This document shows, one piece after another, positions 6,798 to 39,208 of a stretch of DNA of 64,000 bases (its first letter is position 1; each line of letters opens with the position of its first letter). Position numbers and translations under genes: made by a program. Location of the stretch: contig NZ_CP038865.1 in assembly GCF_004792515.1 (NCBI RefSeq), positions 642,001-706,000 of the forward strand. Reading direction: 5' to 3'. This DNA is from Vagococcus xieshaowenii. GTDB taxonomy: Bacteria; Bacillota; Bacilli; Lactobacillales; Vagococcaceae. The notes below the pieces were generated by a model, which worked only from the letters and a program-made list of their open reading frames with translations, was not told the origin of the DNA and made no database searches.

Positions 6798-7864
6798 AAA
6801 ATAAAACCAATTATTTATTTTTATTTATTTATGTCTTCTTATTTACGCTAATTATTTTATTGTTTACCTCGTTTATTGTTTTGACAGCTATGGGCAGAAA
6901 ACTTTGGATTAAAGCGTTATTTGATTTAACCGTTTCTGTTTTTCCTGTCTTTTTTTTCTTAATGCTAATGTCGTTATTAATTGCATTAGTAGTGACGATT
7001 GTGTCATACTTTATACAAAGGAACCAATATCTTGAAATAGAAGAGAAAATCGAACAATTGCAACGTGGTAATTATGATCATCAGGTGTTCGCCCCTCAAG
7101 CAAGTTCTGATTTTTTTGAGGATGAACTGGATCTTCATATTGAATCACTAAGAAAACAATTATCAGAGATGTCAAAAGAACTTCAAGTATTATCTGCACG
7201 TCCGTATTTAGTAGACGGAGAATCCAAAGAGGAAATTTTACGGGAAGAACGTCATCGTTTAGCAAGAGAATTACATGACTCGGTTAGTCAACAGTTATTT
7301 GCCGCTTCAATGATGCTCTCAGCGTTATTAGAATATTCTAAGAAGCAGAATGGTGATGAAAAAATATTAAAACAATTAGATACAATCGAAGACATTATTA
7401 ACGCCTCTCAATCTGAAATGCGTGCACTCTTGCTGCATTTACGTCCAATTAATTTGGAAGGAAAAAGTCTTCAAAAAGGAATTGAGCAATTATTAAAAGA
7501 ACTTCAAACAAAAATTAATATCGAAATGGTATGGGATATTCAAGATATCGCGTTACCAACGACCATTGAAGATAATTTATTTCGAATTATTCAAGAATTA
7601 TTTTCAAATACATTACGCCACGCTAAAGCCAAACGTTTAGAAGTTTATATGAGAAAGCAAGAAGAAATGCTATCTTTACGGGTGATTGATGATGGTGTTG
7701 GTTTTGATACCTCTCAATCTAAAGTAGGTAGTTATGGATTAAGTAATATCAAAGAACGTGTGAATCAAATGGGCGGCACGTGTAAGATTATTAGTTTTAA
7801 AAATAAAGGAACGAGTATTGATATTCGTGTTCCGCTAGTAGGAGAGAGTGATAAGGATGATTAG
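6794..7864 (+). CDS. liaS: LiaS sensor histidine kinase
   Basis: Intramembrane-sensing kinase of the NarL/VraS type. It has two transmembrane segments (about residues 7-32 and 43-74) with almost no extracellular loop, a linker/HAMP-like coil, and a HisKA_3 dimerisation domain with the phospho-acceptor His161 in LARELHDSVSQQ. The HATPase domain includes the N-box FSNTLRHAKAKR and the G-box VIDDGVGFD...GSYGLSNIKERV. It overlaps liaF by 4 bp and liaR by 8 bp, so the three proteins are translationally coupled. It phosphorylates LiaR when LiaF releases it. Confidence 0.95.
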   Translation: MKNKTNYLFLFIYVFLFTLIILLFTSFIVLTAMGRKLWIKALFDLTVSVFPVFFFLMLMSLLIALVVTIVSYFIQRNQYLEIEEKIEQLQRGNYDHQVFAPQASSDFFEDELDLHIESLRKQLSEMSKELQVLSARPYLVDGESKEEILREERHRLARELHDSVSQQLFAASMMLSALLEYSKKQNGDEKILKQLDTIEDIINASQSEMRALLLHLRPINLEGKSLQKGIEQLLKELQTKINIEMVWDIQDIALPTTIEDNLFRIIQELFSNTLRHAKAKRLEVYMRKQEEMLSLRVIDDGVGFDTSQSKVGSYGLSNIKERVNQMGGTCKIISFKNKGTSIDIRVPLVGESDKDD

Positions 7865-8489
7865 AGTAATGTTAGTGGATGACCACGAGATGGTTAGACT
7901 AGGAGTATCATCTTATTTATCGATTCAAGATGATATTGAGGTTGTAGCAGAAGCTGAAAATGGCAAAATTGGTTACGAAAAAGCGTTAGAATATAAACCA
8001 GATGTAATTTTAATGGATTTAGTTATGGATGAAATGGACGGTATTGAAGCGACTAAATTGATTCTAAATGATTGGCCAGAAGCAAGAATTATTATAGTCA
8101 CAAGTTTTATTGATGATGAGAAAGTTTATCCTGCCATCGAAGCAGGCGCGGCGGGCTACCTATTAAAAACATCTTCTGCTAGTGAAATAGCCGAGGCTAT
8201 TCGTTCGAGTTACCGAGGAGAAACCGTTCTGGAACCGGAAGTGACAGGCATGATGATGGATCGTTTGACGAAAAAAAACATCCCTGTTCTTCATGATGAG
8301 TTAACTAATCGTGAGTCAGAAATATTATTGTTGATTTCTGAAGGGAAAAGCAATCAAGAAATAGCCGATGAACTGTTTATTACATTAAAAACAGTGAAGA
8401 CGCATGTTTCAAATATTTTATCAAAGTTAGAAGTAGAAGACCGTACGCAGGCTGCTATCTATGCCTTTAAGCACGGAATTGTTAAATAA
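7857..8489 (+). CDS. liaR: LiaR response regulator (LuxR/NarL type)
   Basis: A 210-residue regulator with an N-terminal receiver domain (VMLVDDHEMVRLG; phospho-acceptor Asp54 in LMDLVMDEMDG; conserved Lys in YLLKTS) and a C-terminal LuxR helix-turn-helix (ELTNRESEILLLISEGKSNQEIADELFITLKTVKTHVSNILSKL, described by its ends). The start at 7857 has GGAGA about 11 nt upstream; a GTG at 7848 is too close to it. Known LiaR targets in enterococci include the lia operon itself and liaXYZ, which is also in this window. Confidence 0.95.
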   Translation: MIRVMLVDDHEMVRLGVSSYLSIQDDIEVVAEAENGKIGYEKALEYKPDVILMDLVMDEMDGIEATKLILNDWPEARIIIVTSFIDDEKVYPAIEAGAAGYLLKTSSASEIAEAIRSSYRGETVLEPEVTGMMMDRLTKKNIPVLHDELTNRESEILLLISEGKSNQEIADELFITLKTVKTHVSNILSKLEVEDRTQAAIYAFKHGIVK

Positions 8490-38226: not shown

Positions 38227-38658
38227 TTAGATTGATTTATAATAAGGTTGCATCATCATGCTTCCTTTTTCAAAAGGTTGATCAACGGCTACATAGCCTA
38301 ATTTTTCATAAAATTTCCAAGCAGAGTCACGCGCATTTAAAATAATACTTTGGTAGCCTTGTTGAAGAGCGATTGCTTCTGCATAGTTCATTAATGATTT
38401 ACCAATGTTTTTTCCACGGTAATCAGGTGAGACAGCTACTTGTTTGATTTGTGCTTGGTGGGGATGACTAGTGTTGTCTAAAAATAGGGTTGCAACCACT
38501 TTTTGATCAATAACAGCAACTAAATGAATCGCTAATTCTTCATCAACAGGTGCGTCCGTAATTAAGGTTAAATTGCTTGGAATATTTAATTGTTCATTTC
38601 TTAAGTTAATACCTTCAAAATATTCTTCACTTAGCCATTGAATGGTTTTTAATTGCAT
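38227..38658 (-). CDS. GNAT-family N-acetyltransferase
   Basis: A 143-residue acetyltransferase: beta4 strand with IKQVAVSPDYRGKNIGKSLMNYAEAIA (motif A R-G-K-N-I-G), SIILNARDSAWKFYEKLGYVAV in the C-terminal half. It resembles the ElaA/YjcF-like group, whose members acetylate small amines or proteins, but the substrate is unknown. GGAGG lies 8 nt before the ATG at 38658, so the 20 codons upstream of it are not coding. On the minus strand it is the first full-size gene downstream of the M-box riboswitch and of a 38-codon ORF. Confidence 0.85.
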   Translation of the reverse strand: MQLKTIQWLSEEYFEGINLRNEQLNIPSNLTLITDAPVDEELAIHLVAVIDQKVVATLFLDNTSHPHQAQIKQVAVSPDYRGKNIGKSLMNYAEAIALQQGYQSIILNARDSAWKFYEKLGYVAVDQPFEKGSMMMQPYYKSI

Positions 38659-38786: not shown

Positions 38787-38903
38787 CTACGTAAATGTGC
38801 GTTGTGAAAGAAAGTTTGCGACTGATCTTATAACAGACGCAGAGATGCTTTCTTTCGTGGTTATGGCGGGTCCTGAAGTATCGTTACTATGACTTTGGTC
38901 CAT
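38787..38903 (-). CDS. Small ORF (38 residues) under the M-box riboswitch
   Basis: A 38-codon frame beginning MDQSHSNDTSGPA and ending IRSVANFLSQRTFT, with a very strong ribosome binding site (AAGGAGG, 8 nt before ATG). It is the first open frame after the M-box terminator. It has no transmembrane segment; the N-terminal half is polar and the C-terminal half could form a basic amphipathic helix. I do not recognise it. It could be a small Mg2+-stress protein, a leader peptide for the acetyltransferase, or the surviving first codons of a lost transporter gene. The strong ribosome binding site supports translation; nothing shows function. Confidence 0.6.
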   Translation of the reverse strand: MDQSHSNDTSGPAITTKESISASVIRSVANFLSQRTFT

Positions 38904-38931
38904 TATAAAATCCTCCTTCTTAAAAAATGGC

Positions 38932-38974
38932 AATAAAAAAATTCCTTGTAATGCGAAAAAAACACAACACAAGA
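38932..38974 (-). terminator. M-box expression-platform terminator
   Basis: On the minus strand CTTGTGTTGTG, loop TTTTTTT, CGCATTACAAG, then GAATTTTTTTATT. Its 5' arm (bases 38965-38974) can alternatively pair with the 3' strand of M-box helix P1 (38995-39003, CAACGAAGA against TCTTGTGTTG), giving a mutually exclusive antiterminator. Confidence 0.8.
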
Positions 38975-38990
38975 AAGTTCTGATAGTTAT

Positions 38991-39160
38991 GATTTCTTCG
39001 TTGAGTTTTAGCACTATACAACGTAAAAAACACCAAGTGTTTTTAGATACCTTTAGAAAAGCCTTAATTCAACTATTCGTGTTTTACCCATTGGCATCTT
39101 TCGATGTTTCTGGGCAGTACCCTGTGTTTGTATAGACGCCTCGCCTAACAAAATCGTTAT
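38991..39160 (-). ncRNA. M-box (ykoK leader) magnesium riboswitch
   Basis: On the minus strand the leader contains the M-box core almost base for base: GTTAGGCGAGGC near the 5' end, then CTATACAAACACAG, then CTGCCCAGAAA, TCGAAAGATGCCAATGGG, and near the 3' end GTATAGTGCTAAAACTC. The closing P1 strands (GATTTTGTTAG and CTAAAACTCAACGAAGAAATC) are present. High Mg2+ compacts the RNA and favours the downstream terminator; low Mg2+ permits antitermination. M-boxes normally control mgtE, mgtA or corA; here the downstream genes are a 38-codon ORF and a GNAT enzyme. Confidence 0.93.
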
Positions 39161-39179
39161 TATTATTTTTACAAATAGA

Positions 39180-39208
39180 AATATATCACGTTATAAAACT
39201 TTGTGCAA
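39180..39208 (-). promoter_or_regulatory. Promoter of the M-box leader
   Basis: On the minus strand TTGCAC, 17 bp, TATATT, placing the transcription start about 10-15 nt before the first M-box helix. Confidence 0.7.

Follow-up and report, generated by a model that had tools for sequence, protein, structure and literature searches.

A GNAT acetyltransferase gene of Vagococcus xieshaowenii lies behind an M-box Mg2+ riboswitch and a short leader ORF, and we propose, with a probability of roughly 0.55, that these elements work as a Mg2+-responsive switch in two stages, whose target is an acetyltransferase gene of the Mg2+ regulon. The proposal builds on the M-box itself, on a class of leader ORFs with biased first codons, on the potential of leader RNA to pair with itself and on a conserved linkage between M-box and gene. 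From these we infer that the leader is translated, that the unit responds to Mg2+ and in which direction the second stage acts.

The DNA studied is a window of 64,000 nt (the whole stretch analysed; assembly GCF_004792515.1, NZ_CP038865.1, positions 642,001-706,000), and feature coordinates count from its first letter. Its minus strand carries, in this order, yidC2 with a terminator, the M-box, a predicted terminator, a Shine-Dalgarno (SD) sequence, a 38-codon ORF and the GNAT gene, after which comes a two-component kinase gene in convergent orientation (HisKA, HATPase_c, ArlS_N). The features are as follows.

39180-39208, minus strand: probable promoter TTGCAC-17-TATATT, with a weak -35 and TG before the -10
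38987-39159, minus strand: M-box (ykoK) Mg2+ riboswitch aptamer, matching RF00380; 167 of 173 positions identical in a sister species (G003)
about 38937-38981, minus strand: predicted intrinsic terminator hairpin with U tract; fold of -13.4 kcal/mol over 62 nt
38912-38918, minus strand: Shine-Dalgarno sequence AAGGAGG of the leader ORF, a 7-nt match
38902-38912, minus strand: leader initiation region, arm 1 of the predicted self-pairing (with 38834-38824)
38787-38903, minus strand: 38-codon leader ORF MDQSHSNDTSGPAITTKESISASVIRSVANFLSQRTFT, with an ATG start and its own strong SD
38848-38856, minus strand: GAAAGAAAG, pairing with CTTTCTTTC in a constrained fold with the start region held open
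38824-38834, minus strand: 3' part of the leader, arm 2, predicted partner of the leader start (helix with 38912-38902)
38806-38814, minus strand: CTTTCTTTC, with GAGAAAG at the stop codon (38787-38781) as alternative partner in predicted folds
38227-38658, minus strand: GNAT acetyltransferase of 143 aa, PF00583 at E 1.2e-17

A cmscan of the window matched RF00380 to the M-box over the full model (1-169) with 138.1 bits (gathering score 44, E 5e-31). The four core strings that the earlier note had quoted as signs of an intact M-box core are all present in the sequence, and this match is the outcome of the Rfam run that it proposed. The only other RNA family match near the locus was RNase MRP on the other strand, which was dismissed as sub-threshold (18.2 bits against a cut-off of 50). 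The note had also credited the riboswitch with its own promoter. The letters TTGCAC-17-TATATT are there (39208-39180), the -35 shares 3 of 6 letters with TTGACA by hand count, and the region upstream of the M-box (39160-39206) is identical to that of the sister species at 43 of 47 positions. A consensus promoter scan found 4 promoter-like sites against 4.6 in shuffles and, since this is not above shuffles, is no evidence for the promoter.

Downstream of the aptamer, folding supports the proposed intrinsic terminator, whose 5' arm can pair alternatively with the 3' P1 strand to give an antiterminator of -7.9 kcal/mol; the expression platform is thus coupled to P1 in the predicted folds. A simple terminator scan did not have the 38981-38937 hairpin among the sites it listed. 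M-boxes fold when Mg2+ is sufficient and act on the expression platform behind them. Joined to the folds predicted here, this suggests a first stage in which, with enough Mg2+, the M-box would fold, P1 would form and transcription would stop at the terminator; when Mg2+ is scarce, the P1 strand would pair with the terminator arm and RNA polymerase would read through.

ORFs preceded by an SD sequence are frequent between M-boxes and the mgtA, mgtE or GNAT genes behind them. They were found at 54 of 82 loci against 8.1 (sd 2.8) in shuffled gaps. To count as a leader, an ORF had to start with ATG, span 10 codons or more, lie between M-box and gene and have an SD match of 5 nt or longer. By gene class, assigned by motif patterns and reading rather than by Pfam (DKTGT occurs in all 70 mgtA-type loci), leaders precede mgtA at 46 of 70 loci, mgtE at 3 of 5 and GNAT at 5 of 7, which gives 49 mgtA/mgtE rows and 5 GNAT rows. 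The loci come from the subset of M-box matches in the order that was fetched (best-scoring, a spread of genera and chosen regions), and the 142 locus records reduce to 135 without duplicates, 5 of them without a gene. The 28 of 82 loci that have no leader under these criteria count against the two-stage reading.

The first codons of the leaders are unusual. Asp, Glu and Pro together account for a fraction of 0.30 of residues 2-12 in 44 non-redundant leaders, compared with 0.13 in the 236 genes used as control (Mann-Whitney p 4e-14). An acidic second residue (Asp or Glu) occurs in 23 of the 44 leaders and 18 of the 236 controls; these statistics include four non-acidic picks (small membrane ORFs and one odd ORF). 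Examples are MDPVPLC.., MEPVPIWP.. and MDPWPS.. before mgtE, and MAHHQEDEVEEPDS.. and MDESPVYKE.. before mgtA; comparable leaders (MDSPSSSR.., MDGDPRSY..) occur at some of 26 loci from other Bacilli. Two traits of MgtL/MgtQ-type leaders were found, the SD-preceded short ORF in the window as elsewhere and the early acidic and proline codons in the class. By analogy, the early Asp/Glu/Pro richness may be a signature of ribosome destabilisation of the MgtL/MgtQ type. With D2, D8 and P12 as its acidic and proline residues, the window leader shows the trait mildly, which also counts against the two-stage reading.

These counts bear on a simpler explanation, a plain M-box OFF switch in which aptamer and terminator would be all that counts, GNAT would simply be the regulated gene and the 38-codon frame would be fortuitous or little used. 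We regard it as possible but rather unlikely. In its favour, the terminator is clear, and RodA-like M-box loci do without leader ORFs (0 of 11 under the same criteria); the excess of leaders over shuffled gaps and the bias of their N-termini speak against it. The comparison with the sister species does so too: identity is 58 of 61 positions from the SD to codon 15, 61 of 71 over the rest of the leader and 95 of 127 in the intercistronic stretch.

Leader RNAs also tend to have the potential to pair with themselves. At p<0.05, 21 of 39 non-redundant leaders have a start that can pair with the 3' part of the same leader or with the bases immediately following (median z -2.2); a like test on ordinary genes gave 11 of 236 (median z 0.24; Fisher p 2e-13 against the leaders), each leader being shuffled over its own segment 150 times and each control gene over a fixed 110-nt segment 100 times. 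The set was obtained from the 54 leaders by removing the four non-acidic picks (beginning MSEL, MPEV, MSTL and MIFA) and one leader whose segment was too short, leaving 49, and then near-duplicates. No significant self-pairing was seen in the other 18 of 39, which again counts against the two-stage reading. The window leader scores -21.7 kcal/mol (z -4.5), and its predicted helix 38912-38902/38834-38824 has 11 of 11 pairs both here and, at the same offset, in the sister species, where two one-sided changes keep standard pairs. An RNA motif like TTATTGTCTATTTGTTT recurs at the 3' ends of leaders of mgtA loci in different reading frames (YYCLFVS, LLSICF, IIVYLF) and shows complementarity to AACAAATGGA at the leader start; the window has a comparable TCTGTTTATTTGTT after its leader, at 38738-38725.

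For the second stage we infer that the read-through RNA carries the leader, whose early Asp, Glu and Pro codons would ease ribosome drop-off at low Mg2+. Ribosomes that complete the leader would melt its 3' part. After early drop-off the 3' part would fold back on the start region, the RNA downstream would refold and GNAT expression would be favoured. Sequestration of the downstream ribosome-binding site (RBS) was dropped as the link, as constrained folds of 25 leader-to-gene RNAs had no uniform change there: predicted accessibility of the GNAT or mgtA RBS did not switch uniformly on or off across the 25 loci between early drop-off and full leader translation. The way in which the leader acts on the gene, direction included, is accordingly hypothetical. 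In the window predicted accessibility is 0.18 with early drop-off and 0.17 with full translation, and this constancy across leader states is what the plain OFF switch would lead one to expect. The 128-nt gap between leader and GNAT may hold a promoter, a further point counted against two stages; the promoter scan of that strand found none between them.

Most likely the 38-codon ORF acts in cis, as a leader, and not as the gene of a small protein. That its 38 residues form a functional small protein made in response to low Mg2+ is an improbable alternative, although the ORF has a strong SD and ATG of its own, its homolog in the sister species is 81% identical, and a paper on mycobacteria reports conservation of an M-box uORF peptide and a paralog of it that is independent of the M-box (PMC12810186). 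Searches of Pfam and NCBIfam with the 38 residues returned no match, and no homolog was found in two other genomes of the genus (G001, G002). Leaders at the corresponding sites in G002, G022 and G027 have little in common past their first residues. Synonymous as well as nonsynonymous change is low: pS is 0.16 in the leader against 0.63 in GNAT, which points to constraint at the RNA level, and a leader pN/pS of 0.57, pooled over 9 pairs, lends little support to a conserved peptide. The pattern of conservation would fit selection on the RNA and the first codons better than selection on the peptide. A second small ORF, reading MKK, a hydrophobic stretch and then TDFDVYSRLL, TDFDFYSTFL or TDFSMFQF, lies between leader and GNAT at three loci (L038, L069, L076) and was not seen in the window.

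The gene under control encodes what appears, from its sequence and model, to be an ordinary GNAT enzyme. PF00583 matches it with 64.7 bits (cut-off 20.7), and the AlphaFold model has a pLDDT of 93.9. SACOL1063-type GNAT (5jph, 5jq4) is the best PDB match in both sequence and fold at about 20% identity, 5jph being the nearest fold (TM 0.88, 20% identity). On the window protein every NCBIfam model stayed below its cut-off; RimI (TIGR01575, 41.8 of 86.4 bits) and the PaiA spermidine acetyltransferase (NF053587, 20.1 of 250 bits) were rejected for missing their equivalog cut-offs. As to the substrate, the other members gave weak matches, and the fold search with the window protein returned generic GNATs.

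The earlier note was right that the next frames after the M-box are a 38-residue ORF and an acetyltransferase, and no transporter-sized ORF lies in the interval from M-box to GNAT. The genome holds two M-boxes, 82% identical to each other. The second (713889-714061 of the contig, 33 kb away) precedes a 31-codon ORF MDDSQSEQEIMTLKEEPPSLRAHYFISCRLL and an 877-aa P-type ATPase, which we read as MgtA-type and which has the DKTGT motif. An eight-sequence GNAT alignment searched against 395 genomes of the order gave matches at E 1e-30 or better in 30 of them, 25 with at least 167 bits. In 24 of the 25 an M-box precedes the gene on the same strand, at most 1.4 kb away; the one exception, in G013, has no M-box in the 10 kb around it, and the stretches read for the remaining five GNATs (115-123 bits, from a single genus) contain none. 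Against named genomes the alignment found 4 loci, all 4 with an M-box.

Gene order agrees with this picture. By eye, the order yidC2, M-box, leader, GNAT and arlS-like kinase recurs in G002 and G003; in G022 and G027 several genes, some of them phosphate-transporter-like, separate yidC2 from the M-box. In G022 the kinase comes after GNAT; in G027 the contig ends. The M-boxes of these leader-type GNATs (window, G002, G003, G022, G027) form one clade (support 0.983), and each such GNAT has its own M-box, apart from mgtA. Elsewhere the gene shares operons with mgtA, which then follows GNAT and does not stand between M-box and GNAT: the four fetched operons L230-L233 read M-box-(mgtC)-GNAT-mgtA, with mgtC in three, and G007 and G008 read M-box-GNAT-leader-small membrane ORF-mgtA-type gene. 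G006 has M-box-mgtC-GNAT. Judged by these arrangements, the M-box-GNAT linkage is conserved and GNAT belongs to the Mg2+ regulon. At 12 loci the GNAT stop TGA overlaps the start of an MDDS.. leader (ATGGATGA; L182, L184-L186, L209, L211, L213, L215, L217, L220, L221, L223), so that GNAT and the mgtA leader look translationally coupled.

An orphaned riboswitch, under which GNAT drifted once a transporter was lost, agrees with the absence of a transporter from the locus and is otherwise highly implausible in view of the MgtA-type ATPase ORF under the second M-box, the M-box clade, the 24 of 25 orthologs and the place of mgtA after GNAT in shared operons. The comparison of relatives that the earlier note suggested revealed no deletion scar, as no transporter stands between M-box and GNAT in the relatives read (mgtC does in many). 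Its other suggestion, an Mg2+-responsive peptide/acetyltransferase unit, survives in half: M-box and GNAT are conserved together across genera, and the ORF looks like a leader.

Outside the window, the starts of M-box mgtC genes and of GNATs without a leader are arranged unusually. In M-box mgtC the SD-linked start reads ATG NAT TTT T and meets a stop after 3-5 codons (16 of 16 genomes of the order read), and the -1 frame continues as MgtC, with an MgtC-like N-terminus MNFL..GGLIGIERQWRKK. L271, the one M-box mgtC read from elsewhere than this order, starts in frame in the usual way and has an upstream ORF beginning MDSRP, so that the -1 start holds for 16 of 17 overall. Non-leader GNATs (20 of the 25 orthologs plus that of Enterococcus sp. 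665A, L177) start with ATG (once TTG) GTA AAA (once AAG) and then C, meet a stop after 4-7 codons and continue as protein in the -1 frame after the third codon, in 21 of 21. A homopolymeric third codon preceded by the same base is present in 20 of 21 GNATs and 16 of 16 mgtC; among 30 mgtC genes that lack an M-box, 28 have their SD start in frame. A pattern scan of the 135 M-box loci and 30 controls found codon-3 cases at M-box mgtC and GNAT only, and none in the window. These starts are likely, from the reading frames, to be sites of start-proximal -1 frameshifting. Many GNATs have a GTG or ATG in the -1 frame, which makes stop-and-restart possible there; L182, L184, L185 and L186 have neither at the restart place. 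The -1 start loci are L182, L184-L186, L208-L223 and L177 for GNAT, and L041, L184, L208-L215 and L217-L223 for mgtC.

Other genes stand behind M-boxes in the order as well. RodA/FtsW-like genes do so at 11 loci, all of family f3 (L093, L098, L100, L101, L103, L141, L144, L147, L149, L151, L167; labels by eye), and LytR-CpsA-Psr-like and other membrane-protein genes, also labelled by eye, at L075, L137, L143 and several of L081-L091; leader ORFs are mostly absent from these groups. At L043, L044, L055, L057, L061 and L063 (the last read in part) the M-box is followed by a membrane peptide of 46-48 aa (..AHIVGHNxTEI..FDPHPT / DEPDPT..) with no close further gene, possibly, from its sequence, a Mg2+-regulated small protein. 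A small membrane ORF (MSELTIFLLFLGVGCFLWGIFYGKKVK..) lies separately between leader and mgtA at L050, L051, L067, L182 and L185, and in frame with mgtA, seemingly joined to the MgtA N-terminus, at L042, L054, L056 and L092; this is reminiscent of KdpF. At L037 (G002) tandem M-boxes (7528-7700 and 7863-8041) precede mgtA, with an ORF MENSDCSCRCLGMDTDDPAPDRKSWTFR between them.

We tentatively extend these observations to the M-box operons found in lactic acid bacteria and related bacteria, where the ribosome might serve as a general second Mg2+ sensor. It would act in destabilising, self-folding leaders (mgtA, mgtE, the window GNAT) and in codon-3 -1 frameshift sites (mgtC ATG NAT TTT T, GNAT ATG GTA AAA C) that would give protein only on slippage, presumably at low Mg2+; GNAT would then be a dedicated enzyme of Mg2+ starvation. 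A conserved acetyltransferase linked to mgtC and mgtA joins the M-box regulon. On the two-stage reading, Gram-positive Mg2+ operons would combine an RNA sensor with a sensor based on the ribosome, the latter resembling enterobacterial mgtL and mgtQ, and the leader statistics put this idea within reach of reporter tests. The -1 start of M-box mgtC and GNAT, if confirmed, would be an unusual recoding site in an unusual use and would change gene-start annotation.

A literature search of titles and abstract openings, covering few subscription journals, brought up no work on M-box-controlled GNATs, on frameshifting in mgtC or on leader ORFs behind M-boxes in Firmicutes. A published case in which an M-box stands over a uORF and an operon of non-transporter genes comes from Mycobacterium tuberculosis, where an M-box lies over pe20 with the conserved uORF Rv1805A (PMC12810186). 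Together with the RodA-like and envelope-type genes in the order, this speaks against the view in the earlier note that M-box targets are all transporters. Both pe20 and the window have an M-box, then an SD-driven small ORF, in an operon not headed by a Mg2+ transporter. They differ in that pe20 has a translational platform with Rho, whereas an intrinsic terminator is predicted in the window, and in that the Rv1805A peptide is described as specific to mycobacteria (PMC12810186). With the M-box family (RF00380) the window element has the aptamer, the conserved core and the transcription-termination platform in common; it differs in having a GNAT gene as its target and a leader ORF placed after the terminator and ahead of that gene. 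The closest parallels for the leader are enterobacterial. E. coli MgtL is described as having EPDP codons at which ribosomes drop off at low Mg2+ (PMC11282234), and Salmonella MgtQ requires Asp2 and Glu5 (PMC8092293). The likeness consists of a short ORF ahead of a gene related to Mg2+, Asp/Glu/Pro codons near its start and, as predicted for the window, alternative RNA pairings (PMC11282234, PMC8092293). Unlike MgtL and MgtQ, the window leader lies downstream of an M-box, its start can pair with its own 3' part and its effect on the gene is presumed.
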